Below are positions 29,389 to 57,689 of a stretch of DNA of 64,000 nt, in pieces. The stretch is from Quadrisphaera setariae. Its GTDB lineage: Bacteria; Actinomycetota; Actinomycetes; Actinomycetales; Quadrisphaeraceae. Location of the stretch: assembly GCF_008041935.1 (NCBI RefSeq), contig NZ_VKAC01000014.1:29053-93052 (forward strand), given 5' to 3'. Each line of letters opens with the position of its first letter. Position 1 is the stretch's first letter. The notes beneath the pieces are model-generated. The model was not told the DNA's origin. It saw only the letters and a list, made by a program, of their open reading frames with translations, and ran no database searches. Made by a program: the position numbers and the translations under genes.

Positions 29389-30393
29389 ATGATTGAAGTT
29401 GACTTCATGTGGGTGGGCGAGAAGACGAAGACCGGTGACGCCATCGCATGCCGGTTCACGCATCCGTCCACAGGTCAGTACGTCGTCATGGTCATCGACG
29501 GCGGTTTCCGAGATGATGGAGCTAGGCTCGCAGCGCTCATCAAGAAGTACTACGACACCACTCATGCTGACCTCGTTGTCTGTACACATCCAGATGATGA
29601 CCACATTCAGGGTCTTTTCGGAATTTTCGAGAACATGAGCGTTGGCGAGTTGCTCGTCCACCGCCCCTCTCTCTACGGGTACTCCAGCGATGCCGTGAAG
29701 AGCGGCACTGTCGAGGACTTGGTCAAAGCTGCCGTCGAGCAGGGGACAACGCTGAGGCACGACTTTGCGGGCGTTGACCTATTCGGTGGCGCGCTGCGGG
29801 TCGCTGGCCCCAGTGAGGAATACTACGAGCTGCAACTCAGCGCGCAGCTTCTGCTGGCGCAGAAGTCGCAAGGTCTCGGCGGACTCGTAACCAAGGCCAC
29901 CCAAGCCATCCGCCAGGTTTTTAACTGGCGTAGCAGTGACCCCGGAGAAACGCTTACTGACGACAATGGGGGAACTACCCCGAGAAATAACTCCAGCATT
30001 ATTATGGATCTGCAGGTCGATGGCTACCGCGTGCTCTTCACTGGAGACGCCGGTGCACCGGCCCTGACGCTTGCCGCCGACCACCTCGACGCGGCGGGAC
30101 GCTCATCTGCTATCTCTTTATTCGACGTTCCCCACCATGGTTCTCGGCACAACCTGACCAAGGATCTGCTCGATCGGCTTCTCGGCGTAGAGACATTTAC
30201 TCATCGCGGTGAGTCCATCATCAGCGTCGGTAAGGAGGCGGATGACTTCCCCCGCCCCGAGGTGGCGAACGCACTCAAACGGCGCGGTTATCCCTGGCAG
30301 GCCACGCGCGGAAAGGACATCTGCTGGAGCCGCGGTGCTGACGCGCGTCCCGACTACTCGCCGATGGTCACGCAGGATTGGCTTGACGAATAA
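29389..30393 (+). CDS. ComEC-like MBL-fold metallo-hydrolase
   Basis: A soluble protein of 334 residues with a metallo-beta-lactamase fold. The metal motif is THPDDDH near residue 66, the HPDxDH form typical of ComEC/Rec2-related stand-alone hydrolases. Later motifs are NNSSIIMDL, FTGDAG near 215 and PHHGSRHN near 250, also ComEC-like. No membrane span is seen. Such proteins are nucleases or phosphodiesterases and often occur in defence islands. It precedes a multi-TM protein and a HEPN-like protein on the same strand and has less GC-biased codons than the flanks. Its substrate is unknown. Confidence 0.8.
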   Translation: MIEVDFMWVGEKTKTGDAIACRFTHPSTGQYVVMVIDGGFRDDGARLAALIKKYYDTTHADLVVCTHPDDDHIQGLFGIFENMSVGELLVHRPSLYGYSSDAVKSGTVEDLVKAAVEQGTTLRHDFAGVDLFGGALRVAGPSEEYYELQLSAQLLLAQKSQGLGGLVTKATQAIRQVFNWRSSDPGETLTDDNGGTTPRNNSSIIMDLQVDGYRVLFTGDAGAPALTLAADHLDAAGRSSAISLFDVPHHGSRHNLTKDLLDRLLGVETFTHRGESIISVGKEADDFPRPEVANALKRRGYPWQATRGKDICWSRGADARPDYSPMVTQDWLDE

Positions 30394-30543
30394 TGGCCAC
30401 CTAGTCTCAATCTGGCGGCACCATGCTCAGCCTGGCTTCGGCATTCTGGTGGATACCGAAGCCGGCTAAGATGCCCCATCGACATCTTCGACACGCGAGC
30501 CCGGCTGGGGCCGGCCGTTGCCGCGGCATCCCCGGCGATCGTC

Positions 30544-31209
30544 ATGGCGATCTTGGTGTTCCGGTTCACTTACTCCGCTGACGTTCTCACGGCCGGTTTG
30601 GTGGCTGTGCTCGCGATCATCTCGGCCATCGTGCGCACCCGGGGACGGGCATTGCAGCGCACGCTGGCCAAGCGCTGGGGCGTGCTCCCCCTCGAGGCGC
30701 TGCTCCAGGCGACGGGGGAGGGCAACCCCCTGATCAGGGCACGCCGCCGTGAGCTGCTCGCCCAGCTGGTCGGACGGCCGCTGCCGACGGCGAGAGAAGA
30801 GTGTCTGCGGCCGGAGGAGGCCAAGCACCGCTACGCGGCGGCGACCAAGCGCTTGCAGATTCAGGCGCGCCGGTTTCCCAAGGAAGCGCCGCTGGTGCGT
30901 GAGGAGCTGGTCAACTACAACTTCGCGCGCAACATGCTGGCAATCAAGTGGGTGGGTGTCGCAGTGGCGCTGCTTATCGCCGGCGAAGGCGTGCGCCGCC
31001 TGCTGGCCGAGGATGACTGGCAGATGCCAGTGGTCCTGTCCACCGCCTACTCGCTAGTCATGGTCGTCGTGTGGCTGGCGTTCGTGCGCGAGAGCTGGGT
31101 GCGAGACGTCGCGAAGATCTACGCCGACCGTCTCCTGGACGCCTTGGAGGGCTTGGTCGGAGCTGTCGACGTGTCGCGACCTCCGTGGTGGTCCCGTCGC
31201 CGACGATAG
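30544..31209 (+). CDS. Multi-span membrane protein of unknown function (possible frameshift at 5' end)
   Basis: At least 221 residues: a hydrophobic N-terminal pair of spans, a cytoplasmic basic/acidic region (about 40-120), then two more spans (AIKWVGVAVALLIAGEGV and VLSTAYSLVMVVVWLAFV) and a tail. The segment VNYNFARNMLAIKW precedes span 3. The frame remains open upstream to an ATC-initial stretch encoding IDIFDTRARLGPAVAA that looks like the natural N-terminus. An ATG at 30471 would join it if the CCCC run at 30474-30477 had one base less. Four-span proteins beside nuclease-like genes are common effectors in defence systems; the role here is inferred. Confidence 0.7.
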   Translation: MAILVFRFTYSADVLTAGLVAVLAIISAIVRTRGRALQRTLAKRWGVLPLEALLQATGEGNPLIRARRRELLAQLVGRPLPTAREECLRPEEAKHRYAAATKRLQIQARRFPKEAPLVREELVNYNFARNMLAIKWVGVAVALLIAGEGVRRLLAEDDWQMPVVLSTAYSLVMVVVWLAFVRESWVRDVAKIYADRLLDALEGLVGAVDVSRPPWWSRRRR

Positions 31210-31246
31210 CCACCTCACCACTCCACCGGTTGAAGGAGGAGACCCT

Positions 31247-32284
31247 GTGCCCTCGACGATGGAGGAGCTAGAACGCATCGCCGTCCAGCTCTTCGAAGCT
31301 AGGCGGCTGGCCGCCTACGACGACGTCGCCCACGTCCGCCTGGCGTTCCTGCTGCTGGACAACGCCGCGGAAATCTCCTTAATGCGTACCGCACGCGCTG
31401 GACTGGTCTGGGCTGAGAAGTACCGCGACCTCGCCGAGTCCCTAGGAGCCGCTGAGGACCTCGACGAGGAGGGCAAGGCTCTTCAATTAGATTTGATGAG
31501 CCAAGCTATTTCCAGGAAACGTCAAGACAAAATTGAATCAAATTTCAAGGACCTCGTTACCTACGCCCTGGGTGCTTCAGGCTTGGATCTACCTGAGGAG
31601 TACGGCGCCTGCGCGAAAGCGCTTCACCGATTTCGAAACGCCGCCTACCACCGCGACCACCTGCACCCTGACATCCTACAGGCGACCAATAGCATCTACT
31701 TCTTCTTGTGCTGTACCTTCCTGCTGCACGAGAAGTGGGTTATGAGTGAAATTGGCATCATCCCATCAGGGGTACGGGAAATCCTGGGGGAGGACACGCC
31801 TCAAGGGACTGGACCGAAGAGCACCGGAAGCGTACAGATGCTGACGCGGGCCGTCGCCGAGCACCTCCTGAAAGACCTAAACCTTGACGTCCAGGAAGTC
31901 GCTTCGGCGCTATCTAGACATCTTTTGGGAAGACTGACGGCGTTAGAAGCTGACCTGCAAAAGATCGAATCGGAAACCTTCCCGGGCCTAGGTCGAGACT
32001 TCATCTTAAGGGTGCTTCAGCAACTCCCAGAAGACAGGCGCGCGGCTGAGAGTGAACCACCTGCAAACTTCCTCACCCGCCAGCTACCCGTTACTTCAGG
32101 AACTCTGACGTCGTGGCGCACCCGCGCTGAATCGCTGCAACGTACTGATGAGGTCCTGAAAGCATTGAGGGCGTTTGCTGACGTCGAAGAACCCCTTACG
32201 ACCTTGGAAAAGCCGGTGGCGCGGTTCATCGATGAGATTGATATGGAGGTTCAGCGGGAGGTCGACCGCCGACTCGGGAAGTAG
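31247..32284 (+). CDS. HEPN-like protein with RNxxxH motif
   Basis: A helical soluble protein of 345 residues. Residues 120-140 contain ALHRFRNAAYHRDHLHPD, where RNAAYH (R130-H135) is the RNxxxH signature of HEPN ribonucleases; the preceding helix LAFLLLDNAAEISL fits the fold. The C-terminal half is charged and helical with no recognised domain. GTG 31247 follows GAAGGAGGAG. Codons such as TTA and ATT are frequent (for example 31480-31520), unlike flanking core genes, suggesting acquisition. It follows the membrane protein by 37 bp and is probably co-transcribed. It could be the toxic RNase of a defence module. Confidence 0.7.
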   Translation: MPSTMEELERIAVQLFEARRLAAYDDVAHVRLAFLLLDNAAEISLMRTARAGLVWAEKYRDLAESLGAAEDLDEEGKALQLDLMSQAISRKRQDKIESNFKDLVTYALGASGLDLPEEYGACAKALHRFRNAAYHRDHLHPDILQATNSIYFFLCCTFLLHEKWVMSEIGIIPSGVREILGEDTPQGTGPKSTGSVQMLTRAVAEHLLKDLNLDVQEVASALSRHLLGRLTALEADLQKIESETFPGLGRDFILRVLQQLPEDRRAAESEPPANFLTRQLPVTSGTLTSWRTRAESLQRTDEVLKALRAFADVEEPLTTLEKPVARFIDEIDMEVQREVDRRLGK

Positions 32285-32495: not shown

Positions 32496-33812
32496 CTACA
32501 GCCCCAGAGCCGTTGCCGCGTTGTCGGTCCAAGCGTGTGAGACCCGCACGTATCCGCCCAGGGAGGCCATCGAGCGGTGCCGGGTCTGGTGGGCGATCGC
32601 GCGGTCGCTCGAGCCCCGCAGGTGGGCGTAGGTGACGAACCCTGCCCGCAGGGAGTGCCCGCTGTACCCCGTCGTCGGGGCGCCGGTGCGGGCCAGGGCG
32701 CCTTTGACGAGGGTGGTCACCGATTCTGGGTGCAGGCGGCGCTGAGCTGGACGGTTGGCCTTGGTGACGCCGCGGAACACCGGGCCCTCGGTGATGTCGG
32801 CGAGCTCGAGCCAGCGCTGCATCGCCAGGACGGGGCAGCGGTCGGGGTTGCCGGCGCGGGGCAGGACGACGAGCTCGGCGCGGCTGCCGGTCTGGTTGGT
32901 CTTGGATCGCGGTAGGGACAGCACCAGGCCGTTGGGGTGCTCGGCGACGTCGGCGACCTCCAGGGCTGCCAGCTCGCTGCGGCGTAAGGCGCCCACGAAG
33001 CCGACCAGCAGCAGCGCGCGGTCACGCGCCCCGGTCAGATCCGGCTCCGGTGCTCGGACTGCTGCCCTCGAGGGGCGCCCCGACGCGGTCAAGGCTGGCG
33101 CGGGCCAGGTCCTGGTGACCGGACAGGCCGCCAGCACGTCAAACAGCAGCGGCGGCATCAGCGGGGCCGCCTGCTGCGGCGGGGCGCCGTGGAGGCGGCG
33201 GATGCCTTCCCAGACGGCCATGACCCGGGGGTGGGTGGCGGGGTCGGGGTGGCCGGCGCTGGCGTGGGCGAACTTGATCGAGCTCAAGCGCCGGGACAGG
33301 GTGCCGACCTTCGCGCCGGCCTCGGCCAGCGCGACCAGGTAGCCGGTCAGCGCTGAGGGAGAAGCGGGCATCGGCTCTGCGGCGTGGGTGGTGCACCAGG
33401 TGGTGAAGTCGGCCCAGTCGAAGCGGTACCCGCGCAGGGTGTTCTCCGCCCGGGCGGCGCGGGCGTAAGCCGCCTCGCGCTCGGGCAACCCCGCCAGCTG
33501 TGGCAGCACTCCGAGCGAGGCCAGCTCCAGCTGCCCCTCGATCGCCGCTCCATCGAGGACGGCTTCGTCGCCAAGGTCCTCATCGACGCTGTCGCGATCA
33601 TCGCCGTCCACGGCGATGCCGGTATCCAGCCCCGGGACGATCTCAGGAGCGAAGCCGTCGTCGACCACGCCGTCGAGGCCGACGCTCTCGGAGGCGTCGA
33701 CGTCGGCGTCGGCATCGACACCGGGAGAGGCGGGGAAGGCCACCACCTGACGGTAGGCGCCGCCCCCGACCGTGCGGGAAAGGTTGCCGGCATAGGACGG
33801 GATTCCCCTCAT
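32496..33812 (-). CDS. Tyrosine recombinase / integrase
   Basis: A site-specific recombinase of 438 residues. Catalytic residues are recognisable: Arg in ALRRSELAAL, Lys in RSKTNQTG, HSLRAGF (HxxR), His in HQTRHRSMASLGGY and the Tyr nucleophile in GGYVR. An N-terminal SAM-like core-binding domain spans about 115-200. It is preceded by an acidic Asp/Val-rich extension of about 100 residues that is unusual for the family. It probably integrates and excises the mobilizable element to its right. The adjacent attachment site was not identified and no tRNA gene is next to it. Confidence 0.92.
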   Translation of the reverse strand: MRGIPSYAGNLSRTVGGGAYRQVVAFPASPGVDADADVDASESVGLDGVVDDGFAPEIVPGLDTGIAVDGDDRDSVDEDLGDEAVLDGAAIEGQLELASLGVLPQLAGLPEREAAYARAARAENTLRGYRFDWADFTTWCTTHAAEPMPASPSALTGYLVALAEAGAKVGTLSRRLSSIKFAHASAGHPDPATHPRVMAVWEGIRRLHGAPPQQAAPLMPPLLFDVLAACPVTRTWPAPALTASGRPSRAAVRAPEPDLTGARDRALLLVGFVGALRRSELAALEVADVAEHPNGLVLSLPRSKTNQTGSRAELVVLPRAGNPDRCPVLAMQRWLELADITEGPVFRGVTKANRPAQRRLHPESVTTLVKGALARTGAPTTGYSGHSLRAGFVTYAHLRGSSDRAIAHQTRHRSMASLGGYVRVSHAWTDNAATALGL

Positions 33813-36093: not shown

Positions 36094-36555
36094 ATGACTC
36101 TCATCAACGATCTGCCTGCGGCGCGCACCCTGGTGAGGCTTCATCACCAGAGCGAGATCGTCGACATGGATGAGCGCCGCGCCATGCTGCAGCTCGCTGC
36201 GGGTGGGGTGAGTCAGCGCGAGATCGCCGCCCTTCTGGGCGTGACCCAGCCCACGGTGAACGGCATCCTGAAGCGAGCTGCGAACCTGCCGCAGCCTGCG
36301 GAGGGCTTCTCCAGTGCGACGCCGATGGAGGCCTGCAAGCGGTACGCCGCCGGCCTGCTCGCACGGGATCAGTTGGTCGACGAGCTGGTGCGCTTCCCCT
36401 ACGCCGCGGTCGAGCGTGACCCCTTCGACGACTTCAGTGCCGACCCGCCAGGGGCGTGGTCGGAGGTGGAAGACGCCGAGGGGCTCGGTCTGATCGAGGA
36501 GGACGTCTACGAAGAGATTTTCAACCGGCGCCACCCTGCCCCCGAAGGCCAGTGA
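36094..36555 (+). CDS. HTH antitoxin-like protein of zeta toxin
   Basis: A protein of 153 residues. The segment MLQLAAGGVSQREIAALLGVTQPTVNGIL is a clear helix-turn-helix near residues 30-60. The C-terminal half is acidic and helical (DPFDDF, VEDAEGLGLIEEDVYEEIF), as expected for a domain that neutralises a toxin. The start ATG 36094 has a strong AAGGAGG site. Its stop overlaps the GTG of the zeta-like toxin gene by 4 bp, the order and coupling of PezAT and related systems. It probably represses its own promoter via the palindrome just upstream. Confidence 0.82.
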   Translation: MTLINDLPAARTLVRLHHQSEIVDMDERRAMLQLAAGGVSQREIAALLGVTQPTVNGILKRAANLPQPAEGFSSATPMEACKRYAAGLLARDQLVDELVRFPYAAVERDPFDDFSADPPGAWSEVEDAEGLGLIEEDVYEEIFNRRHPAPEGQ

Positions 36556-37802
36556 GCAACCCCAGCGACGGCGCCGGTGGCAGTGCCGGTGGTGGTGCTG
36601 GCCGCGCGGTGAGTGACCTCGACGCTCAGGTGGCCGCGCACATGGCGCAGGTCCGCCGCCTGAGCCGAGCTGGCGGACCGCTGTCGGTGGAAGGGTCGAC
36701 GGCGACGACGAATGTCGGTGCCTGGTTCAGGGGCGGAGAACCCACACCCCTCAGACGGCGACTGCACCGGCAGCTGCTCGTCGAGGCCAACGCAGGTGCT
36801 CGAGCCGACCAGGAGCGGCACGCCATCGTCATGGCCGGGCCCCCCGGCGCCGGCAAGTCCACGGTGCGGGTTCCGTTCATGGCAGCCGAAGGTCTGGACC
36901 CGGCGTCCTACACCGTCATCGACGCCGACCACTTCAAGGAGGGGCTGGTCCACGCGGCCCTGGCGGATGGCTCCTACGAGCGGTTCATCAAGCCCAGCGA
37001 GATCCGACAGTTAGAGGCTGCGGGGGAGCGGTTCTTCCCCTTGGAGATGTCCGCGCTGCTGCAGGAGGAGTCCGGTCTGCTGGCGCGGGCGCAGCAGCGT
37101 CAGCTGCTGCGGGCAGGTGCCAACGTCATCATCGACACGGTCCTGTCGAACCCCGACAAGGCGGTCGAGCTGGGCGGCCGGCTGGAGGCGATGGGCTACA
37201 CCGTGACGGTCCTGGACGTGGAGGTCTCCGCCGAGCTCTCCCAGGCGCGCATCGAGCACCGCTGGGCTCTGGCCTACCGCGAAGCACTCACCGGTGTGGG
37301 CAGCGCTGGCGGTGGCCGCTGGGTGCCCTCGGAGTACGCCCGCCAGGTCTTCGACGGCCCACAGGGCCCGGGTGGCCCCTCGCGTTCAGAGGCGGCCGCG
37401 GCCGGGCTGGCACAGACCTGCCCGGCGGTCCTGCGCTACCAGGTTCTCCGCACCCCGGGGGGCCGAGAGCAGGTCCTCCAGGGCCAGCCCCAGCTCGAGG
37501 TCGACCTGGCGCGCAGCGGCCCGGGAGGGCCCCTGCAGCCGGTTGCTCGCTCGACCCGCAGCGTGGCGGCACCAACGGCACCGGGCGACGGCCGCCAGTC
37601 CTCGGCGCCGGTCCAGTCGGGCCGGACGGACCCGCCGCGTGGGCCGGCGTCGATGTCCTTGGCTGATCGCGTCACGCGGCAAGCGCAGTTCCGTGAGGCG
37701 GCACAGCGCAGCGCTGCCGCACCAGGCTGGACGTCGCCGGCTGGGCGCGGGCCTAACCTGAGTCCGGGAGGGAAGCCGCGCGGTCCTGGCGGCTCTCGGT
37801 GA
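36552..37802 (+). CDS. Zeta-toxin family kinase
   Basis: A protein of 416 residues. The P-loop AGPPGAGKST lies at about 95-104, then VIDADHFKE (the zeta-type substrate Asp region) and VIIDTVLSNPDKA near 195. Zeta toxins phosphorylate UDP-N-acetylglucosamine or related nucleotides and block wall synthesis unless bound by their antitoxin. The C-terminal 130 residues are Pro/Ala/Gly-rich low complexity, unusually long for the family, as on conjugative-element versions in actinobacteria. It starts at GTG 36552, overlapping the antitoxin stop; GTG 36609 is an alternative. It likely stabilises the mobilizable element. Confidence 0.88.
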   Translation: MSNPSDGAGGSAGGGAGRAVSDLDAQVAAHMAQVRRLSRAGGPLSVEGSTATTNVGAWFRGGEPTPLRRRLHRQLLVEANAGARADQERHAIVMAGPPGAGKSTVRVPFMAAEGLDPASYTVIDADHFKEGLVHAALADGSYERFIKPSEIRQLEAAGERFFPLEMSALLQEESGLLARAQQRQLLRAGANVIIDTVLSNPDKAVELGGRLEAMGYTVTVLDVEVSAELSQARIEHRWALAYREALTGVGSAGGGRWVPSEYARQVFDGPQGPGGPSRSEAAAAGLAQTCPAVLRYQVLRTPGGREQVLQGQPQLEVDLARSGPGGPLQPVARSTRSVAAPTAPGDGRQSSAPVQSGRTDPPRGPASMSLADRVTRQAQFREAAQRSAAAPGWTSPAGRGPNLSPGGKPRGPGGSR

Positions 37803-38328
37803 GATGACGCCGTGGCGGCCGCCGTCATGGTCGTCCTCGTGGTCGACGTCGTGGTCGGCGTCGCGGTGAGGGGTCTGACGGCTGCTGGTGGCCGGCGGTG
37901 GTGGTGTAGGCCCTACAGCAGGTGGAGAACCGCTGAGCGCGAGGAGCGCCCGCTGGAACCGGGGCCCACGTCGAGCACTCTCGTGGGCTCGGTAGTGCCC
38001 GTGGCGGATGACTCCACCACCGCGGGACCCCTCCCCCTTCCAGGGCCTCCCTAGACCCAGCGCCCGCGACTGGTGGGGGGACGCGCAGCCCGCCGCCAGT
38101 GGTCGACCCATCGCGCCGAGGGGCGCATCCGGCGCCCCGAGGGATTACTGATGCTGGCGGCCGGGGCGCTTGCGCCCCGGCCGCCAGTGCTAGTGAACCC
38201 ACGTGCTGCCCGCTCACGGATTGACGTGGTGTCGGTCGGTCGGGGCATGCTGTCCTGATCCACGACCGCATCTCGACCGCCTCTGGATCGGTCCGCGGTG
38301 CAGAGGCAGGGCCGAAGGGAGGCGTCAC
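37803..38328. other. Intergenic region with very strong hairpin
   Basis: About 525 bp between the zeta toxin and a small membrane protein. No credible gene. It contains GGGGCGC-N5-GCGCCCC near 38119-38137 and the 16-bp perfect hairpin 38154-38187, listed separately. Confidence 0.5.
38154..38187. terminator. 16-bp perfect hairpin
   Basis: CTGGCGGCCGGGGCGC at 38154-38169 and its exact complement at 38172-38187 with only TT between. It is by far the strongest stem in this part of the window. It most likely terminates the toxin operon, but its position 780 bp before the mobilization genes also allows a replication or transfer role. Confidence 0.6.
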
Positions 38329-38967: not shown

Positions 38968-38988
38968 AGCAAATGTTAAACATTTGCT
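38968..38988. promoter_or_regulatory. AT-rich palindrome in the divergent HTH/mobC region
   Basis: Perfect inverted repeat AGCAAATGT-TAA-ACATTTGCT. It directly abuts the upstream start of the minus-strand HTH gene and precedes the mobC-relaxase operon, so it is a good candidate operator for both. Confidence 0.7.
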
Positions 38989-39036
38989 GGTCTAGCGGCT
39001 TCGCCGCAGACCGTTATGGGCTCCGCCCAAACCCGT
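38989..39036 (+). other. Candidate origin of transfer (oriT)
   Basis: Between the palindrome and mobC are two small stems, GCGGC-TTC-GCCGC (about 38995-39007) and TGGGC-TCC-GCCCA (about 39017-39029), in a short non-coding gap immediately upstream of mobC and a MOBP relaxase. Transfer origins of MOBP elements usually sit exactly here with hairpins beside the nic site. The nic sequence itself is not identifiable by eye. Confidence 0.45.
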
Positions 39037-39050
39037 TAGGAGGTGGTCCC

Positions 39051-39467
39051 GTGGCACGTCGCGCCGCCTCCGATGGCCGTGAGGTCTTCAAGGCCCTGCG
39101 ACTGACGACGATGGACTGGGAGCGCATTCAGCAGCGCATGGCGCTGGCTGGGACTTCGAACTTCAGCGCTTACGCGCGACGTGTTCTGGTCGACGGGGAG
39201 CTGCGCGTGCAGACGGTCGCGTTCGACGCGGAGGTGCTGCGCGCGGAGCTCGGGCGGATCGGCAACAACCTCAACCAGATCGCCCGCCACGCGAACACGG
39301 AGTCATCGCTGACGCTGTCGGAGGCCGTCGCTGCACGTCGGCTGATGCAGGAGGTGCAGCAGCTCCTGAGTGCGGCCACCCGCCCGCAAGATCGCGTCAA
39401 CGAACGCACCGAAGACCGCACCGAAGACCGCACCGAAGACCGCACCGTCGAGACGGGCGGGGACTAG
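39051..39467 (+). CDS. mobC: MobC-like relaxosome accessory protein
   Basis: A protein of 138 residues. An RHH-like N-terminus (LRLTTMDWERIQQRM, then NFSAYARRVLVDG) is followed by the MobC family core IGNNLNQIARHAN near residue 80. Such proteins bind oriT and help the relaxase open the nic site. GTG 39051 is chosen because of the TTAGGAGGTGG site just upstream. The C-terminus carries a 12-bp DNA repeat encoding (RTED)n. It is immediately followed by the relaxase gene. Confidence 0.9.
   Translation: MARRAASDGREVFKALRLTTMDWERIQQRMALAGTSNFSAYARRVLVDGELRVQTVAFDAEVLRAELGRIGNNLNQIARHANTESSLTLSEAVAARRLMQEVQQLLSAATRPQDRVNERTEDRTEDRTEDRTVETGGD
39405..39446 (+). repeat. 12-bp tandem repeat in mobC
   Basis: CGCACCGAAGAC repeated three and a half times in frame, encoding a charged RTED repeat at the MobC C-terminus. 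A slippage-prone track. Confidence 0.9.
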
Positions 39468-39469
39468 CG

Positions 39470-41644
39470 GTGGCGGTCGTGACGATGCACCAGATCAAGT
39501 CGACTCTGGGCAAGGCGCTGCGGTACATCGTGCGACCGGAGGCGACCCAGGGCGGGCTGCTGGTGTCCACGACGGCGGCGGTCATCGACCCCAGTGACTG
39601 GAACGCGACGGCGGAATCCTTCGAGGCCTCACGGGAGCTGAGGCAGGGTTCGGGTCGCAAGTCCACCGTGCTCGCCCATCACGTCATCCAGGCGTTCGCG
39701 CCCGGTGAAATCACCTCCGGAGCCCAGGCCCATGACCTCGGAGTGGCCTTCGCCGACCGCATCACGCAGGGCCGGTTCGCGTACACGCTGGCGACGCACC
39801 TGGACAAGGGCCACCTGCACAACCACCTCATCATCAACGCCGTCAGCCACGTCGACGGCAGGGCCTTGCGGGTGCAGAAGCAGACACTCGGGGACTACCG
39901 CGCCATCAGTGACGAGCTGTGCCGCGGGATGGGTCTGAGCGTCATCGAGCGGACCGTCGAGCGTGATGAGACGCGCACGGACACGGTGGTGCGTCCGCGG
40001 CTGGCGGAGGTCTACACGCGTGCTCGTGGCGCCTCGCGGCACGAGCAGGTGCGCCTCGCGATCGACCATGCGGTGTCTGCGTCTAGCAACTGGCTTGACT
40101 ACGAGCTGACGTTGGAGGCCCAGGGCATCGAGGTCGGTCGCAGCCAGAAGCGAGCAGTGACCTACCGCACCGAGTCGATGGCCCGCGCGGTGCGCGACGT
40201 TCGGCTCGGGCCTGCTTATGCCGAAGGGGCGGTGATGGCGCGGCTGGGTAAGACCAGCGTGCTGCGCTTCGATGCCCACGAGTCCCTGGTCGTGCCGGTC
40301 CGAGCATCCTCACGAGCGTCCAGCCGCGTGCCTGTGCAGTCGCATGGAGAGGTGCACCGGGAGGCGCCTGGAACTGCGCCCGTGCATGACGCGGCCAACG
40401 CCTCGATGCAGCACGCCGTGACCATCAAGGTGCCGGGCACAGCAGGGCAGCGCTGCATCGCGGTGCACCCTGACCAAGTCGTTCAGCATGGCAAGATGCT
40501 GCGGATCTACCTGCCCGAGCACGGCACCCAGGCGATCCTGAACCGCAGCGGAGGCATCGTGGCCAACGTCCCGACCAAAGCCCTCTACGCGGCCTTCACG
40601 CCGCCCGCGCGGGAACTCGCGGGTCGCCTCCACCAGATCGAAAGCTCGCGTGGGCTGCGCGGCGGCAAGCGTGTTCGTGAGCAGGTGGAGCGCCTAGCGA
40701 CGAGCGCGAACCTGCTCAATGTGCGGGGCCGCTTCGGGATCCTCACCGAGACCGACGCGCTGGCGCATGTCGCTGCGCTGGGCGCGGAGATCGAGCGCGC
40801 GGAGACCCGCATCCAGCACCTGGCGGTCGCCCTGGATGAGAGCGCCCCGGGGAGCCAGGAACGCGCGGACCTGCGCGTGCAGCTCGCCGACGCCAGTCGC
40901 AGCATGGGGGACCTGCAAACCACCGCGACCGAACTGATCCAGTGGGCCAAGACCGCGCCGCCGCGGGAGAACGGGCACCCCGGAACAGGCCGCACCGAGC
41001 TGGCTGACCTGGCCGACGTGGCGCTGCGCGAGCGGCTGGGCGACGTCGACCCCGTTGACCTCAGCGCCATAGGCGTCCCTGCGGAACGCGTGAGCCAGCT
41101 GCTGGACCAGCCGGCCTCCGGCGGAGTCTCGGAGCGGCCGGAACAGGGGCCGGCGGGAGGGCCGGCCAACGCGTCGGCAGACCGTGTCGACGTGTCAGCT
41201 GAGGCACCGGCCGACCTGTTGGCCGACGCGCCAGAGCGGGCGCGCGAGGCGCCTGGGCGGAGTGACCATGGCGACCTCGCGGGGGACGAGACGCTCCCCC
41301 CGCAGGCCGCCGAAGGTCGTGACGGCCAGCACGCCCAGCCGCGCGAGGACGCCGTCGAGATGTCCTGGGAGGACGTCGTGGAGATGTCCGACAGCTTGGT
41401 CCGCCCGGCTGGCCCGGGCGACGGCGCCAGTGACCCCGGAGGTCTCGACGTGGAAGAGGAGCGCGCCGCGCGTCCTACCGAGCGTCGCAGTGCCTCACGT
41501 GGTGGGCCAGGGCGGGACGTGTCCCAGCGGCCCGCGGGATGGAAGACGATGAGCCTGACGGAGCGCGCTGCCTGGCTCAGTGGCAGGTCGGTGCGCGAGA
41601 GCGCACGCGACACCGACGACAACACACCGAAGCGGAGGCGCTGA
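39470..41644 (+). CDS. MOBP-type relaxase (MobA/VirD2 family)
   Basis: A relaxase of 724 residues. The N-terminal domain shows the three-His metal motif in HLDKGHLHNHLIIN (His110, 115, 117, 119) and a candidate catalytic Tyr near the N-terminus (LRYIV, about residue 19). It nicks oriT and stays covalently bound to the transferred strand. The middle region is a helical domain; the last 200 residues are acidic, Ala/Pro/Glu-rich and likely carry the coupling-protein recruitment signal. It starts at GTG 39470, directly after mobC, and is followed by PcfB-like and VirD4-like genes. Confidence 0.93.
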   Translation: MAVVTMHQIKSTLGKALRYIVRPEATQGGLLVSTTAAVIDPSDWNATAESFEASRELRQGSGRKSTVLAHHVIQAFAPGEITSGAQAHDLGVAFADRITQGRFAYTLATHLDKGHLHNHLIINAVSHVDGRALRVQKQTLGDYRAISDELCRGMGLSVIERTVERDETRTDTVVRPRLAEVYTRARGASRHEQVRLAIDHAVSASSNWLDYELTLEAQGIEVGRSQKRAVTYRTESMARAVRDVRLGPAYAEGAVMARLGKTSVLRFDAHESLVVPVRASSRASSRVPVQSHGEVHREAPGTAPVHDAANASMQHAVTIKVPGTAGQRCIAVHPDQVVQHGKMLRIYLPEHGTQAILNRSGGIVANVPTKALYAAFTPPARELAGRLHQIESSRGLRGGKRVREQVERLATSANLLNVRGRFGILTETDALAHVAALGAEIERAETRIQHLAVALDESAPGSQERADLRVQLADASRSMGDLQTTATELIQWAKTAPPRENGHPGTGRTELADLADVALRERLGDVDPVDLSAIGVPAERVSQLLDQPASGGVSERPEQGPAGGPANASADRVDVSAEAPADLLADAPERAREAPGRSDHGDLAGDETLPPQAAEGRDGQHAQPREDAVEMSWEDVVEMSDSLVRPAGPGDGASDPGGLDVEEERAARPTERRSASRGGPGRDVSQRPAGWKTMSLTERAAWLSGRSVRESARDTDDNTPKRRR

Positions 41645-41646
41645 CC

Positions 41647-42447
41647 ATGTCGGTCGAGAGCATCGAGAGCACAGCCCGTCGAGTCTCGTTCGAGATGGGT
41701 GTGGAGGCGGTCAAACTCGTCGGGCCGCTCAGCAACCTCCTGTGGGCTGCCTCGCGCGCCCTGGTCACCAAGGCGCTCACGACGATGCCGGGCCGCGGCG
41801 GGTCCATGGGTGGTCGCGTCTCCACGGTGGACCTGGAGAAGTTCACCAACGGCCAGCGCGCCATCGTCAACCTGGAGGACCCGCGCACCTTTCGCGTGGT
41901 GCGCCAGACGCTGCGGCGCTACGGCGTCACGTTCGCGGTGACCAAGGAGGCCGGGGAGTTCCGCGTGCACATCGGCGCCGGCAACGCCGCGCTCCTGGAC
42001 GCCGCAATGAAGCACGCCGAGTCGACCGTGGCCCGCCAGATCCAGCGGGAGCAGGACCGCGCAGCTAAGCGGGAGGCAGCAACCCCCCAGCGCAGGACGA
42101 CCACGCCGGAGCGCACCGCGGACCGCGTCGTGGACCGCACCGTGCCTTCCCAGACTCGACAGCCGGACCCAGCTCCTTCCCGAGAGGTTGCCCGGGAGGC
42201 CGTCGGCCCGGTCGCGGGGCGGTCGCGTGCAGCAGGAGTTGTGAGCCGCACCGATGGCCCAGAAGTCCCGGCGAACTTCGCCCGCATGAGCTTGGAGCAG
42301 CGCACCCCCTACCTGGCGCGGCAGCGGGCAACCGGCGCGCGCACTGGGGAGGCTCGCCCTCGTGGCGCTGCTCGCTCGGCGCCGGTGCGCGCGGGACGGT
42401 CCACGTCCGCACGTACGGCATCACGCACCCCGCGCGGTCCCCGGTGA
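41647..42447 (+). CDS. PcfB-like (DUF3801) conjugation accessory protein
   Basis: A protein of 266 residues. Residues about 55-130 (RVSTVDLEKFTNGQRAIVNL, then FRVVRQTLRRYGVTFAV and FRVHIGAGNAALLDAAM) match the DUF3801/PcfB pattern of proteins found between relaxase and coupling protein genes in Gram-positive conjugative elements. PcfB helps dock the relaxosome to the coupling protein. The C-terminal half is disordered and Arg/Ala/Pro-rich. Start ATG 41647 lies 3 bp after the relaxase stop, and its stop overlaps the next GTG. Confidence 0.85.
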   Translation: MSVESIESTARRVSFEMGVEAVKLVGPLSNLLWAASRALVTKALTTMPGRGGSMGGRVSTVDLEKFTNGQRAIVNLEDPRTFRVVRQTLRRYGVTFAVTKEAGEFRVHIGAGNAALLDAAMKHAESTVARQIQREQDRAAKREAATPQRRTTTPERTADRVVDRTVPSQTRQPDPAPSREVAREAVGPVAGRSRAAGVVSRTDGPEVPANFARMSLEQRTPYLARQRATGARTGEARPRGAARSAPVRAGRSTSARTASRTPRGPR

Positions 42448-44195
42448 AGGGCCGGATCGCCCCTGGGCTGGGGGCCGTGCTGCTGGTCGCCGTCGGCGCC
42501 AAGGCCACCCGCGCGGTGCGCGAGTCCTGGGCCAGCTCTGACGTGATCACCGAGCGTCTGGGGGCGATCACCCCCGCACTGCAGCAGGAAGGCCGCCGGT
42601 GGTGGTCCCTGGACGTCCAGGGGATGGACTGGCTCGGCGGACTCGGGCTGCTGGTGGTGGTCCTGCTGATGATCGCCTACAGCCGTGCTGGACGGCAGAC
42701 CGAGCGCATCGGCGAGGAGCACGGATCAGCGGCCTGGGGAGGGGGACGTGACATCGCCCCTTACGCGGGACGACGGGGTGAGCCGAGGCTGCGCTTCACC
42801 GCCACTGAGACGCTGTCGTTGGACACCCGGACCACCCGGCGCAACCTCAACGTCCTGGCCGTCGGAGGCGCAGGCAGTCGCAAGACCCGCAGCTTCGTGC
42901 TGCCGAACCTGCTCTCGGGCAACGGCGTCTCCTTCGCTGCCACCGACCCCAAGGGTGAGCTGTACCGCGAGGCTGCCGAGCCGCTGCGAGCCGCCGGGTA
43001 CGACGTGCGGGCGCTGAACCTGGTCGACCTGCGCTCCTCGAGCGGGTTCAACCCGCTGGCCTACATCGACCGCGACCAGCCCGAGGTCGGTATCGCACAG
43101 CTGGCGGCCACCATCGTCAGCAACACCGAGAGCAAGGGCGTCGACGGCAAGGACGCGTTCTGGGACCGTGCCGAGCGGGCGCTGCTGACGTCGCTGACCG
43201 CGTACGCCTACTTCATGGGTGAGGCAGCGCGGCTCGCGGCGCTGGCCGATGAGGCCAAGAGCCCCGGGTCGGTACCGCCCAAGGGCCTGGGGCCGGCCTC
43301 CCTCATCGACGTGGTCGAGTTGGTCAAGAAGCTCGAAGCCAGCGAGGACAACGAAAAGCACACCTCCGAGGTCGACGAGATGATGGAAGTCGTCCGCGAC
43401 CTGCTGGACAACTGGAGCGACCTTCCGGACATGCGCCCGGAGGAGTCCGACCACATCCGCGACGGCCTGCACTTCGCCGCCGGCCAGTACCGCATCTTCC
43501 AGCAGGGCGCCGGTGAGACCAAGAAGGGAGTCATCATCTCCCTGGGGGTTCGCCTGGCCGTGTTGGATGTTCCCGACGTGCGCCGGTTGCTTTCACATGA
43601 CGAACTCGCGATCGAGCAGCTGGGGCTCAATCCAGGCGTATTGTTCTGCATCCTGCCGGACACTCACCAGACCTTCCGCTTCATCTCGGCACTGTTCTGG
43701 CACTCGATGTTCTCAGTGAATGTCTACGCGGCCGATCACTCCCCTGAAGGTCAGCTAGAAGTACCGATCCAGTGCTACCTGGACGAGTTCGCCAACATCG
43801 GACGCATCCCGGACTTCCCGCAGGTAATCTCCACCATCCGCAGCCGCGGCATCAGCGTCGCCGTCATCTTGCAGACCCTCGGTCAACTGAAAGCTCTGTA
43901 CCGCGACGAGTGGGAAGTCATCGCCGGCAACTGCGACAGCTTCCTCTTCCTGGGCGGGAACGACGCGACGACGCTGGACTGGCTGTCCAAACGCCTGGGC
44001 CGCTCCACGATCAAGGTGGAAGACACCAGCCAGAGCAGCGGGCGCAACAGCTCTTCCTCACGCAGCCTCAAGAAGACCCACCGCGACCTCATGACCCCCG
44101 ACGAGCTGGGTCGGATGAACGAGGAGGAGTGCATCTACCTGCTGCGCGGAGTCAAGCCGTTCAAGTCCCGCAAGGTGCCGATCTACGTCGGGTGA
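42444..44195 (+). CDS. VirD4/TraG-type conjugative coupling protein
   Basis: A coupling ATPase of 583 residues. Two N-terminal spans (PGLGAVLLVAVGAKA; GGLGLLVVVLLMIAYS) precede the ATPase domain with Walker A-like VGGAGSRKTRSFVLPNL, the conserved DPKGELYRE and Walker B CYLDEFANIGRIPDF. The second-last Gly of the P-loop is Arg (GSRKT), unusual for this family. It delivers the relaxase-DNA complex to a type IV secretion channel, presumably supplied in trans, since no channel genes are present. It starts at GTG 42444 with a 4-bp overlap. Confidence 0.93.
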   Translation: MKGRIAPGLGAVLLVAVGAKATRAVRESWASSDVITERLGAITPALQQEGRRWWSLDVQGMDWLGGLGLLVVVLLMIAYSRAGRQTERIGEEHGSAAWGGGRDIAPYAGRRGEPRLRFTATETLSLDTRTTRRNLNVLAVGGAGSRKTRSFVLPNLLSGNGVSFAATDPKGELYREAAEPLRAAGYDVRALNLVDLRSSSGFNPLAYIDRDQPEVGIAQLAATIVSNTESKGVDGKDAFWDRAERALLTSLTAYAYFMGEAARLAALADEAKSPGSVPPKGLGPASLIDVVELVKKLEASEDNEKHTSEVDEMMEVVRDLLDNWSDLPDMRPEESDHIRDGLHFAAGQYRIFQQGAGETKKGVIISLGVRLAVLDVPDVRRLLSHDELAIEQLGLNPGVLFCILPDTHQTFRFISALFWHSMFSVNVYAADHSPEGQLEVPIQCYLDEFANIGRIPDFPQVISTIRSRGISVAVILQTLGQLKALYRDEWEVIAGNCDSFLFLGGNDATTLDWLSKRLGRSTIKVEDTSQSSGRNSSSSRSLKKTHRDLMTPDELGRMNEEECIYLLRGVKPFKSRKVPIYVG

Positions 44196-44486
44196 GCGGC
44201 CAACTCTGATGATCACTCTTCGTGCTCCTCTGTGACCGGTGATGCCCAGACGCGATGTTCGTATGTCGTACCTGAACGAGACGCTTCAACGAACAGGCCA
44301 AATGCGACTCGAGCACGCGGCGTGACGAGACCCAGACCGGCGACGCCCAGTCCGTCCGCTCAGCGGTCGTCATGTGCGACCTCACTCACCAGGATCGAGC
44401 AGACAGCTCCACAGCCGCCTAGCGACATCGGGAGCTGGCTCTGGCACCTCATTTCTCAACACCCAGCGATCGCGTCGCATGACGCG
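44196..44486. other. Right flank of the mobilizable element
   Basis: About 290 bp with no credible gene between the coupling protein stop and the convergent CDP-alcohol phosphatidyltransferase. The right end of the element is probably here, but I could not find a repeat matching the recombinase side. Confidence 0.45.
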
Positions 44487-45254
44487 TCACCCGCGGCAGC
44501 GGTCCTCACGCACGAGGGTGAGCCCATCACGCCCGAACGACCAGGCGAGTGACGCTAGTGCACCTGCCGCCAGGACCACAGCGAGCGGCTGCGGCAGGCC
44601 GGGGACGGCGACGGCGGCGAGGACGACGCCCTGGACGGCGGCGACCAGCTTGCGGGAGAACAGCGGAGCCAGCTGGCCCCGCAGCGGCGGCCACACCGCG
44701 CCGACCGCCACCCACGCGTAGCGCATGCCGCCGATGGCCAGCACCCACCACCCGACGACCGCGGCGGACGGCAGGCACAGCACCGCGATCAGTGCGGCGT
44801 CCACCTCCATGTCCAACCGGGCGCCCGCCGCGCTGGCGGTGCGGGTCCGGCGGGCCACCGCGCCGTCGACGGCGTCCAGCGCCAGCGCCGGCGCTGCGAG
44901 CAGCACCACCGGCCAGGACGAACCCAGCTCACCCCGGAGCAGGTCGAGGGCGACCAGGGTCGCCACCCCGCCCCCGAGGACCGTCCGCAGGAGCGTGACG
45001 CGGTCGGCCGGACCGCTCCACCCGTCGCGGCGTCGAGCCACGCCGAGGGCCGCGACCCCCACCAGCAGGGTGCCCGTCCCGGCCGCCAGGGCCGCCCGGT
45101 GACCGCCGCCCGGCATCACCGAGGTGAGTGACACCAGCGCGCACACCACCGCGGCGGCGAGCACCGTGAGGAGCGCGTCACGCCGCGCCGAGCCGTCTCC
45201 GTCCGCTCGCGCCGCCTGACCGGTCGGTCTCGCCGAGCCGCTCACCTCGCCCAC
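44487..45254 (-). CDS. CDP-alcohol phosphatidyltransferase
   Basis: A membrane enzyme of 255 residues. The family signature D-x2-DG-x2-AR-x8-G-x3-D-x3-D is present as DAVDGAVARR followed by GARLDMEVDA (residues about 127-152), in a protein with about six spans. It transfers a phosphoalcohol from a CDP-activated donor to an acceptor alcohol; the acceptor cannot be told from sequence. Its start is only 29 bp from the divergent dehydrogenase gene, so the two probably share a bidirectional promoter and belong to the same pathway. Confidence 0.9.
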   Translation of the reverse strand: MGEVSGSARPTGQAARADGDGSARRDALLTVLAAAVVCALVSLTSVMPGGGHRAALAAGTGTLLVGVAALGVARRRDGWSGPADRVTLLRTVLGGGVATLVALDLLRGELGSSWPVVLLAAPALALDAVDGAVARRTRTASAAGARLDMEVDAALIAVLCLPSAAVVGWWVLAIGGMRYAWVAVGAVWPPLRGQLAPLFSRKLVAAVQGVVLAAVAVPGLPQPLAVVLAAGALASLAWSFGRDGLTLVREDRCRG

Positions 45255-45283
45255 CCCAGGAGCCTCGCGTACCTTGCTCGATC

Positions 45284-46366
45284 ATGCCCGTGCAGGCCTT
45301 GCAGTCCTCTGAGCCGTCCGGGCAGCCGGGTCGTTCCCCCCTGCACGCCACGGCGTACTGGACGACCGGGCCCGGGACCGGTGAGCTCCGCAGCGAGACC
45401 CTCTCGCCCCCCGGTGCGGGTCAGGTGCTGGTGCGGACCCTGCACTCCGGGGTCTCCCGCGGCAGTGAGCTGCTGGTCCACCGCGGCGGTGTGCCACCGG
45501 AGGTGGCGCAGAGCATGCGGGCACCGTTCCAGCAGGGCGACCTGCCCGGCCCGGTCAAGTACGGGTACCTCTCGGTCGGGGTGGTCGAGGCCGTCGGCCG
45601 GGGAGCCGACAAGGACGACGAGCAGGGCGGCTCTCCGCTGCTGGGGAAGACCGTCTTCTGCCTGCACCCCCACCAGGACCGCTACGTCGTCCCCGCCGAC
45701 GCCGTCCACCCCGTCCCCACCACCGTCCCGGCGCGGCGGGCGGTGCTCGCGGGCACGGTCGAGACCGCCCTGAACGCCCTGTGGGACGCCGCACCCCGGT
45801 TCGGCGACCGCGTCGCCGTGGTCGGCGCCGGCATGGTCGGGGCCGCCGTCGCCGCGCTGGCGCGCCGCTTCCCCCTGCAGCGCCTGCAGCTGGTCGACCG
45901 CGATCCCTCCCGGGCGGAGCTGGCCGCCTCCCTCGGCGTTGACTTCGCCCTGCCCGAGCAGGCCGCCGGGGGGTGCGACATCGTCGTGCACGCCTCCGCC
46001 AGCGGCGAGGGCCTCTCGCGGGCTCTGGAGCTGCTGGGCCCGGAGGGTGAGGTGGTGGAGGTCTCCTGGTATGGCGACGCACCGGTGACCGTCAGGCTCG
46101 GAGCGGGCTTCCACGCCCGGCGCCTGGCCATCCGCGCCTCCCAGGTGGGCACTGTCGCCACAGCCCGCCGAGCGCGGCGCAGCACTTCCGAGCGCCTCCA
46201 GTTGGCGCTGGAACTGCTCTCGGACCCGGTCTTCGACGCCCTGCTGTCCGGATCCGTGGGTCTGGACGACCTGCCGGCGGCCATGGTCGACCTCGCCACG
46301 GGACGGCGAAGCGCGCTCTGCCTGGTCGTCGACCATCCGACCGTACCCTCCGACCTCGCCTCCTGA
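45284..46366 (+). CDS. MDR-superfamily (alcohol-dehydrogenase-like) oxidoreductase
   Basis: A protein of 360 residues. An N-terminal GroES-like domain (SGVSRGSELLVHRGG) is followed by a Rossmann fold with VAVVGAGMVGAAVAALA near residue 180 and a VDRD acidic end of beta-2. Typical structural-zinc Cys clusters are absent, so it is an atypical, perhaps zinc-free, member. It heads a plus-strand run with the PTPS-like, glycosyltransferase, methyltransferase and flippase-like genes. The substrate is unknown; a keto or aldehyde intermediate of a pteridine- or sugar-linked product is possible. Confidence 0.85.
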   Translation: MPVQALQSSEPSGQPGRSPLHATAYWTTGPGTGELRSETLSPPGAGQVLVRTLHSGVSRGSELLVHRGGVPPEVAQSMRAPFQQGDLPGPVKYGYLSVGVVEAVGRGADKDDEQGGSPLLGKTVFCLHPHQDRYVVPADAVHPVPTTVPARRAVLAGTVETALNALWDAAPRFGDRVAVVGAGMVGAAVAALARRFPLQRLQLVDRDPSRAELAASLGVDFALPEQAAGGCDIVVHASASGEGLSRALELLGPEGEVVEVSWYGDAPVTVRLGAGFHARRLAIRASQVGTVATARRARRSTSERLQLALELLSDPVFDALLSGSVGLDDLPAAMVDLATGRRSALCLVVDHPTVPSDLAS

Positions 46367-46375
46367 GGAGCCGCC

Positions 46376-46780
46376 GTGTACCGCGTCAGCGTCCGCGACC
46401 ACGTGATGGTCGCCCACTCCCTGCCTCGCCCCTTCTTCGGCCCCGCGCAGGGCAAGCACGGGGCGACCTACGTCGTGGAGCTGGTGCTGGCGGCCACGGC
46501 GCTGGACGAGAACGGCGTGGTGGTCGACATCGGGGCGGCCTCGGCGGCGCTGGGCTCCGTGCTGGACGAGCTGCGCTACCGCGACCTCGACGAGCACCCC
46601 GCCTTCGCCGGTCAGCTCACCACCACCGAGGTCCTCGCCCGCTGGGTGGCCGACCGCGTGGCGGCTGCCTCGCACTGCGAAGGACCGGCCGCGGGTCTGG
46701 TCAAAGGGCTGGACCACCTCGAGGTGGTGCTCCACGAGACCCCCGACGCCTGGGCCAGCTACCGCCTCGACGCCCTGTGA
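46376..46780 (+). CDS. 6-pyruvoyl-tetrahydropterin synthase / QueD-fold protein (atypical)
   Basis: A protein of 134 residues with the T-fold layout: N-terminal strand VSVRDHVMVAHSL (first zinc-type His), KHGATYVVELVL, the TTEVLARWVADRV helix and the C-terminal LEVVLHETPDAWASY. In PTPS/QueD the second motif is CxxxHGHNY, with a catalytic Cys and two zinc His; here the Cys is absent and HGH reads HGA, so one zinc ligand is missing. It may catalyse a different reaction or bind a pterin without the classic chemistry. It is 9 bp after the dehydrogenase gene. Confidence 0.82.
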   Translation: MYRVSVRDHVMVAHSLPRPFFGPAQGKHGATYVVELVLAATALDENGVVVDIGAASAALGSVLDELRYRDLDEHPAFAGQLTTTEVLARWVADRVAAASHCEGPAAGLVKGLDHLEVVLHETPDAWASYRLDAL

Positions 46781-46798
46781 CGCTCCCGTGATGGTGCT

Positions 46799-47965
46799 GT
46801 GACGACCGCTGAGGCGGCTACTGAGACGGCTACTGAGACGGAGCGGAGCCTCGCCGTCGTCGTCCCGGCGCCGTGGCAGGCCCTGTCCGGCGGCAGCACC
46901 TACGACCGGCGGCTCGTCGCCGCGCTGCGCACCCGTGGGACCCCGGTGCGCGTGGAGGTCGTGGACGGCGCGTGGCCGCGACCGTCGCCGGGCGAGCGAC
47001 GAGCGCTGGCAGAGGCGCTGGTCCGCTCCGGGGCGGCGGACGTCGTCGTCGACGGCCTCGTGGCTGCCGCCGCACCCACCGAGGTGCTGGCGGCGGTCGA
47101 CGACGGGACGCGGGTGCACGTCCTGGTGCACCTGCCCCTGGCGCTGGAGAGCGGCCTGGACCCGGCCGTCGCGGCCGAGCTCGACCGGAGCGAGGCAGCA
47201 GCGCTGCGCGCAGCGACCTCCGTGCTGGCCACCAGCGGCTGGGCGGCCACCGAGCTGCAGCGGCGCCACGGCCTGGGAGCCGTCGGCGTGGCGCGGCCGG
47301 GGGCCGAGCCCGCCCCGGCAGCACGGGGCTCCCGGGACCGGCCGCCGCGCGTCCCGCAGCTGCTGCACCTGGCCTCGCTCAGACCCGTCAAGGACCAGCT
47401 CGGGGTGGTCGCCGCCCTCAGCCGGCTCCAGGACCTCCCGTGGAGCGCCGTCCTGGCCGGACCCGTCGGCGATGCCGAGTACTCCGCGGCCGTCGAGGCC
47501 GCCGTCGACGCCGCTGGGCTCCGCGACCGCGTGCGTCTGCCGGGTCCGGTGGTCGACGACGAGCTCGAGCGCCTCTGGGACGCCACCGACCTGCTCCTGC
47601 TGCCCTCGCGCGCCGAGACGTGGGGCATGGTCGTCACCGAGGCCCTCGCCCGTGGGGTCCCCGCCGTCGTCAGCGCCGGCACCGGCGCCGTCGAGGCCCT
47701 CGGAGGCCCGCACGAGGGGGGGCTGCCCGGTGCCGTGGTCGCTCCCGGTGACCCCGAGCAGCTGTCCGCCGCGCTGCGACGCCTCCTCGGCCCCGAGGGT
47801 GCCGCCGCCCGTGCCGCAGCTGGCGCCGCGCGGCGACAGCTGGTCGACGGCGGAGGCTGGGACAGCACCGCGGCGGCGGTCCTCGACCACGTCCGCGCCG
47901 CCCGACAACCCGGCCGACGACGCGTGCGAGGCCCTGACCGACGACCCGACCGACGACCCGAGTGA
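46799..47965 (+). CDS. GT4-family glycosyltransferase
   Basis: A GT-B glycosyltransferase of 388 residues. The C-terminal donor-binding domain shows LHLASLRPVKDQL and the E-x7-E motif in SRAETWGMVVTEALARGVPAVVS near residue 265. The N-terminal 15 residues are a Thr/Glu/Ala repeat and the C-terminus an Arg/Pro/Asp tail. It should transfer a sugar from a nucleotide donor, probably to a small or lipid acceptor made by this cluster. Starts at GTG 46799; its stop overlaps the methyltransferase start. Confidence 0.88.
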   Translation: MTTAEAATETATETERSLAVVVPAPWQALSGGSTYDRRLVAALRTRGTPVRVEVVDGAWPRPSPGERRALAEALVRSGAADVVVDGLVAAAAPTEVLAAVDDGTRVHVLVHLPLALESGLDPAVAAELDRSEAAALRAATSVLATSGWAATELQRRHGLGAVGVARPGAEPAPAARGSRDRPPRVPQLLHLASLRPVKDQLGVVAALSRLQDLPWSAVLAGPVGDAEYSAAVEAAVDAAGLRDRVRLPGPVVDDELERLWDATDLLLLPSRAETWGMVVTEALARGVPAVVSAGTGAVEALGGPHEGGLPGAVVAPGDPEQLSAALRRLLGPEGAAARAAAGAARRQLVDGGGWDSTAAAVLDHVRAARQPGRRRVRGPDRRPDRRPE

Positions 47966-49793: not shown

Positions 49794-49808
49794 CCCACCG
49801 CGCCACGG

Positions 49809-52561: not shown

Positions 52562-52615
52562 CCCTCGAGGGTGGTCCCCCGGCCAGGGCACCGGTAGGGA
52601 CCGAGTGGCTGTGGG

Positions 52616-52636
52616 GTCACAGGCAGAAGCTGTGAC
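52616..52636. promoter_or_regulatory. LysR-type operator between TDT transporter and lysR
   Basis: Perfect dyad GTCACAG-N7-CTGTGAC in the 93-bp divergent interval, 18 bp before the LysR start. Position fits an autoregulatory/activation site for the adjoining LysR protein. Confidence 0.7.
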
Positions 52637-52654
52637 GACCACTACTGTGGCGTT

Positions 52655-53617: not shown

Positions 53618-53624
53618 CCGGCGG

Positions 53625-54332: not shown

Positions 54333-54337
54333 GCGCT

Positions 54338-54378
54338 ACCTCGGGTCGTCGCAGCCGAGTGCTGCGACGACCCGAGGT
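54338..54378. repeat. 17-bp perfect inverted repeat upstream of the UDG-like gene
   Basis: ACCTCGGGTCGTCGCAG at 54338-54354 and its exact complement at 54362-54378, 7-nt loop. It begins 6 bp upstream of the first possible start codon of the UDG-like gene and would form a strong RNA hairpin in either direction. It could be a terminator for a remnant transcript, an operator, or an RNA element occluding translation. Confidence 0.75.
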
Positions 54379-55462: not shown

Positions 55463-55513
55463 GACTCTCCTAGATGTGGGTGTGCGGATCACAGGGGCGG
55501 GGTGAGCCCGCTC

Positions 55514-56059: not shown

Positions 56060-56067
56060 GGGACGAC

Positions 56068-57666: not shown

Positions 57667-57689
57667 GGTCCTCCTGCCCACGTCCAGCG

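Follow-up and report, generated by a model that had tools for sequence, protein, structure and literature searches.

The metallo-beta-lactamase (MBL) nucleases of the Hachiman, Avs1 and Canu systems have been described as protease-controlled, and insertions relative to ComEC in HamM and Avs1a appear to block the active site until the protease cuts (PMC12799240). Related MBLs occur in Lamassu, DRT and Canu (PMC12799240). In Kiwa, Zorya and SNIPE a membrane component positions a DNA-acting effector at the injection site (PMC12904381). We analysed a 64,000-nucleotide stretch of DNA from Quadrisphaera setariae (contig NZ_VKAC01000014.1, positions 29,053 to 93,052; hereafter the window) in which three consecutive genes encode a ComEC-like MBL hydrolase, a small membrane protein and a HEPN-like protein. 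An earlier note on this DNA had taken the three for a single undescribed defence module. The first two genes were found to be recurring partners and the third most likely stands beside them by local juxtaposition. On balance we favour two independent units, a membrane-controlled pair with a putative ComEC-like DNase and a stand-alone putative HEPN-like RNase.

All three open reading frames (ORFs) that the note had placed on one strand were present (29389-30393, 30544-31209 and 31247-32284), the second of these (+ strand) encoding 221 amino acids when read from its first ATG. The three genes are described as follows:

29389..30393, + strand: ComEC-like MBL-fold hydrolase of 334 amino acids, PADLOC PDC-M48B-like, predicted metal-dependent DNase (PDLC04676, ComEC relatives, conserved active site)
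30478..31209, + strand: small polytopic membrane protein of the family in alignments A3/A5, recurring MBL partner (conserved N-terminus at ~30478, first in-frame ATG at 30544)
31247..32284, + strand: stand-alone HEPN-like protein of 345 amino acids, GTG start, RNxxYH at 130-135 (neighbouring gene, outside the conserved pair)

The MBL and membrane genes as recurring partners

The membrane gene is the recurring partner of the MBL gene. A small membrane gene stood beside the MBL in 32 of 37 MBL loci on viral contigs, a set that includes near-duplicates, and 31 of these partners were 110-330 amino acids long with at least two spans, the last (L114) being a 91-amino-acid piece. For comparison, five of 303 called genes more than 400 nt from the MBL were of that length and span number. 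In plasmids of Rhodococcus and Curtobacterium, and in three more genome loci, the membrane gene likewise came after the MBL or overlapped it. Among 396 genomes of the phylum the membrane family gave seven matches including the window's own, and MBL-fold genes adjoined four of the five best non-self copies (two in G297 and one each in G318 and G426); the MBLs of G318 and G426 were distant (profile E of 2.2e-21, 6e-8 and 5e-12). In locus L160 an ORF of 1082 amino acids (1893-5141) matched the MBL profile (2.2e-21) and faced a membrane-family gene in convergent orientation.

Plasmid loci of the membrane family were examined in 11 of 46 records, hand-chosen for diversity, and an MBL-fold gene was near the membrane gene in all eleven, ten by profile A2 and L167 by NCBIfam. 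Eight of the eleven had neighbours of the 6A-MBL type, seven of them a cassette of MBL, E1/JAB and membrane genes in which the third member belonged to the window's membrane family, and the eighth (L164) a membrane-family gene beside such genes. By NCBIfam, L164, L167 and L169 carry the 6A-MBL enzyme, and the latter two also the E1-JAB gene; for the remaining five 6A-MBL-type loci the assignment came from annotation, gene size and profile A2, and in L166 from size and A2 alone. Locus L164, on an Acinetobacter plasmid, included two different MBL genes, a ThiF-type E1, a WYL-domain regulator and the membrane-family gene.

The PADLOC model PDC-M48B (PDLC04676; we take PDC to stand for 'phage defence candidate') matched the window MBL over its full length (residues 3-326, E=4.3e-56), so this half of the locus is not undescribed as the earlier note had proposed. 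Weaker PADLOC matches were to LmuA (2.5e-22), RTasMBL (1.7e-17) and Avs1a (6.4e-13). The HPDDDH motif reported for the first gene was confirmed at residues 67-72, and the MBL has a ComEC-type metal site (HxDxDH, a later Asp and HH). Residues H67, D71, H72, D220 and H249 were kept in all 38 non-redundant relatives, and D69 and H250 in 37 of the 38, which is consistent with a predicted DNase activity. Between its aligned halves the MBL was approximately 52 residues longer than ComEC chain 9ic4, and the segment Y146-T196 was 47-62 residues long in 38 of 38 relatives. Part of the profile of PHROG 7043, labelled 'tail protein', aligned with the window MBL (1.8e-44), and 'tail protein' is also the RefSeq name for the MBL gene of Peduovirus P24E6b (L175, LR595885.1 / NC_049389.1). 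Given the ComEC-type site of the MBL, this name is probably wrong for the part concerned.

In two viral loci, L106 and L117, which are probably P2-like prophages, the MBL pair is flanked by a terminase gene and, on the opposite side, by a replication nickase; in L106 the terminase side also includes a portal gene. In P24E6b the MBL was followed by a PDC-M48A-type gene and a replication gene. A hotspot of antiviral systems is known in P2-like phages (PMC9122126), and the MBL pair may occupy that position. A role of the MBL-membrane pair against invaders is likely from the phage context together with the PADLOC and NCBIfam labels. The defence role proposed in the earlier note is plausible for the parts, given the PADLOC match and the pairs on plasmids and viral contigs.

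Relation to known systems and candidate control of the nuclease

Two catalogued systems stand closest to the pair. The first is PDC-M48, in which the window MBL matched the B component over its full length and small PDC-M48A membrane proteins adjoin related MBLs. The window membrane protein differs, and membership in PDC-M48A by sequence was rejected, with no PADLOC match at E<=1 and an hhalign probability of 0.1 between its profile A5 and the PDC-M48A-type profile A6. The second is 6A-MBL (NF058524 for the MBL enzyme and NF058523 for cap2_3), which has the membrane family in common with the window pair. However, no E1/JAB gene was found among the three ORFs and ten flanking genes scanned, and the window MBL scored 46.7 bits against the NF058524 cut-off of 220. 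By sequence the pair falls outside both systems, because its membrane protein gave no PDC-M48A match, its MBL lies below the cut-off and an E1-JAB gene was not found. It is best classed, on the same comparisons, as a variant joining a PDC-M48-type MBL to the membrane family found in 6A-MBL. In the open-licence PMC literature no paper was found on PDC-M48, and none on the MBL-membrane pair was among the matches listed for MBL-membrane or 6A-MBL defence.

Like the gated MBL pro-nucleases of Hachiman and Avs1, the window MBL is ComEC-like with extra residues; those systems have a trypsin or caspase partner (PMC12799240), whereas no protease family was found in the same three ORFs and ten flanking genes. 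The pair would be comparable in its proposed logic to Kiwa and SNIPE (PMC12904381). A PDC-M48A-type relative (L126) weakly matched KwaA (9.6e-5), and none of the three window proteins had a PADLOC match to KwaA, KwaB or Zorya.

In the two-unit reading, the ComEC-like MBL DNase and the small polytopic membrane protein would together make up the first, two-gene unit. The latter protein would act as a membrane sensor of invading phages or plasmids and would hold or release the MBL nuclease at the DNA entry point. The approximately 50 extra residues of the MBL may gate its active site, and contact with the membrane protein would replace the proteolysis of HamM and Avs1a. The second unit would be a HEPN-like RNase acting alone as an abortive-infection or toxin gene. 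If this is true, a membrane-tied MBL nuclease would represent a second mode of control beside proteases (PMC12799240) and would have a possible direct link to DNA entry.

More tentatively, the four-span membrane protein could be a portable switch for ComEC-like MBL nucleases, gating them directly through the extra residues in the pairs and being E1-JAB-regulated in the 6A-MBL operons. On that view the pair would represent, in minimal and ancestor-like form, the core of an immune family that degrades DNA on a membrane trigger, in parallel with the MBL nucleases gated by proteases. The most interesting point is that one membrane family is common to two-gene pairs and ubiquitin-like 6A-MBL operons. 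Such sharing would offer a tractable minimal system in which to ask what the ubiquitin-like enzymes add.

Several points weigh against the reading of two independent units. Nuclease activity is not common to all MBL-fold enzymes, and the extra residues of the MBL are equated with the HamM and Avs1a insertions by analogy. Three of the 37 viral loci had no membrane partner near and two were cut by a contig edge, and the split of partners in the viral loci (window family 13, PDC-M48A family 15, other small membrane protein 4) is not independent, as the profiles A5 and A6 used for the assignment were built partly from those loci. A broken membrane copy in G312 and weak matches in G452 and G529 had no MBL in the short flanking stretch. 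The MBL was present in four of 50,697 named phage records, namely Peduovirus P24E6b (two records) and two Escherichia phages. Neither the AF2 model of the ATG-form membrane protein (mean pLDDT, the predicted local distance difference test, of 85.9) nor the HEPN model gave a Foldseek PDB match at E<=0.001, and neither profile gave a PDB sequence match at E<=1. The words lactamase, MBL and metallo are absent from the main text of PMC9122126.

A further point of this kind concerns the start of the membrane gene. By hydropathy the form from the first ATG (30544) has three hydrophobic spans, and the protein including the conserved N-terminus (from ~30478) has four maxima. The probable four-span protein of the earlier note has four spans only with a start near 30478. 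No in-frame ATG, GTG or TTG precedes the conserved N-terminus, so the window copy may be damaged. It is conceivable, though doubtful, that this copy is a decaying remnant which has lost its membrane start and that the pair no longer works here. The ATGs at 30423 and 30471 are out of the membrane gene's frame, and in most window-type relatives the membrane gene starts at most ~30 bases from the MBL stop or overlaps it. Decay is opposed by a frame that is open to 31209 with strong coding bias and a G+C content at third codon positions (GC3) of 0.85, and by the sister genome G009, in which the letters of the start region are identical; rare start codons also exist. A dead window copy would be compatible with either of the mechanisms considered here for the relatives, so the degrees of confidence given in this text need not add up to one. 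At the end of the MBL gene the stop codon shares bases with an ATG (TAATG, in the window region 30391-30544), and the MBL and the membrane protein are read in the same frame, which is open from directly after the MBL stop. The soluble part of the membrane family (alignments A3 and A5) holds conserved residues. MotA/PomA stators, which ranked first, and ExbB, which ranked lower, were among the 50 Foldseek matches listed for the membrane model, with E of at least 0.26 and TM-scores of at most 0.31, and were considered too weak to use.

The assortment of partners bears on which of the two proteins would be the effector. A tree of the MBLs was built from viral, plasmid and genome loci after loci with a cut or broken MBL (L114, L127, L128 and L134) were left out, with 44 sequences reduced to 38 at 90% identity. 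The partners of the 38 were of the window type in 21, of the PDC-M48A type in nine and of another type in five, with none in three, and the types were mixed on the tree such that different small membrane families partner related MBLs. Such a pattern could be expected if the membrane protein were a toxic pore-forming effector that the MBL triggers or restrains, in the way supposed for other membrane effectors, the pair killing the infected cell, and the partner in L013 weakly matched one PADLOC 2TM effector model (E=0.00096). We regard this as rather unlikely, as the ComEC-type metal site is kept in the MBL and the membrane model had no significant match to solved structures, pores included.

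The best PDB sequence relatives of the MBL were ComEC chains (9ic4 and 30bt), and many copies are on plasmids. These observations would also fit a housekeeping or uptake hydrolase, ComEC-like, whose linkage reflects DNA uptake or plasmid biology. This is improbable, since copies are located beside phage terminase and replication genes and the best match is to a model from a defence library.

The HEPN-like gene and its probable separateness

The co-conservation of the three genes, which the earlier note had put forward as a check, was examined in 60 HEPN loci (54 genome contigs, one viral contig and 5 of 12 plasmid records, with up to 5 kb on each side). This set includes loci cut off by a contig edge as well as near-duplicates. 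Only one locus, L048, near-identical and in the sister genome G009, contained the MBL and membrane genes; the queries were five membrane sequences and a single MBL (E<=1e-3), so that distant MBLs could have been missed. A HEPN relative was seen in none of the 37 viral MBL loci. Among 297 genomes of the order the HEPN gene was present in two, the window's own and the sister, and strong MBL matches were found at five places in four genomes. The MBL pairs of G183, G097 and G009:C57, the last being a second MBL-membrane pair in the sister genome, had no HEPN relative beside them. Given the absence of HEPN linkage across these sets, apart from the sister locus, the trio is most likely a local juxtaposition, and the three-gene module was rejected. 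Treating the HEPN gene as separate keeps a false three-gene system out of defence catalogues.

The HEPN motif itself was confirmed. The RNxxxH reported for the third gene is RNxxYH (R130, N131, Y134 and H135) and was invariant in all six members found without selection on the motif, as well as in all 30 members of a set found using the motif as the search pattern. In the latter set R31, D38 and E42, which were absent from the search pattern, were also invariant. Forty-nine HEPN stretches were tried, of which 39 passed (length, frame and no stop) and 29 entered alignment A4; three were excluded because of stops or frame (L057, L069 and L088) and seven because of length. The 29 aligned homologues were 19-39% identical to the window protein. 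Judged from names, 42 of 54 loci are actinobacterial.

HEPN domains have an Rx4-6H motif with a polar residue after the R, located at a helix end (PMC3710099). In the AlphaFold model of the window protein (mean pLDDT 91.7) the motif is at the end of helix 117-135. The protein resembles the DUF4145-like part of the HEPN superfamily in its Rx4H, the N after R, the helix-end motif and the upstream acidic residues (PMC3710099). It differs in that DUF4145 was matched by only six of the 30 members at E<=0.1 (best 2.7e-4) and the window protein itself had no Pfam match. None of the 30 members matched a PADLOC model at E<=0.01. The putative HEPN identity is supported by RNxxYH, the upstream acidic residues and the confidently predicted helical model, although Foldseek gave no fold match at E<=0.001, and an RNase activity may be predicted from the sequence. 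After thirteen loci, mostly near-duplicates, had been dropped, the 131 neighbours of 41 HEPN loci included matches to AriA, GajA, Old, methyltransferases and integrases, a survey with no control or per-locus counts that is to be read as a hint only.

The HEPN gene follows the membrane gene on the same strand after a gap of 37 nt, with a good ribosome-binding site, GAAGGAGG, 5' of its GTG. The lower GC bias of codons that the earlier note had seen in the first and third genes was borne out, as GC3 was 0.69 for the MBL gene and 0.66 for the HEPN gene compared to 0.80-0.90 in the two nearest called genes on each side. Although this arrangement would make co-transcription possible and the low GC3 is common to both genes, a single abortive-infection module of all three genes is very improbable in view of the one near-identical locus among 60, the 37 viral loci and the second pair of G009.

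Neighbouring genes and the sister genome

A MerR regulator and an SBF-family transporter are located upstream of the three genes. The downstream order is a tyrosine recombinase, a YfbU-domain gene, a zeta-toxin-like gene, a NikA/MobC-like protein, a relaxase and a coupling protein, and the zeta-toxin-domain gene is at window 36456-37802 within the mobilisation region. The downstream features given coordinates are:

32496..33812, - strand: tyrosine recombinase (Phage_integrase), adjoining gene
38973..39467, + strand: NikA/MobC-like mobilisation protein, nearby
39470..41644, + strand: MobA/VirD2-type relaxase, nearby
42444..44195, + strand: T4SS-DNA_transf/TraG-type coupling protein, nearby

Candidate parts of the mobilizable element said to adjoin the three genes are present, with the recombinase adjoining (32496-33812) and the mobilisation genes nearby (38973-44195); they may or may not form one element with the three genes. 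Comparison of the left flank with four further genomes of the genus gave one 202-base match and no empty site that would mark the borders of the element. Relatives of the recombinase stretch occur at another place in the same genome (G000:C7:171781-173095, 80% identity) and in G011 (83%).

Positions 3979-44368 and 60644-64000 of the window were 98.8-100% identical in G009, apart from a short difference near 38102-38175; the comparison covered the window from 3979, with 1-3978 compared in part. A block of approximately 16 kb (window about 44369-60643) was absent from G009:C123, where its flanks adjoin with a 7-base overlap, and reflects either a recent insertion in the window or a deletion in G009.

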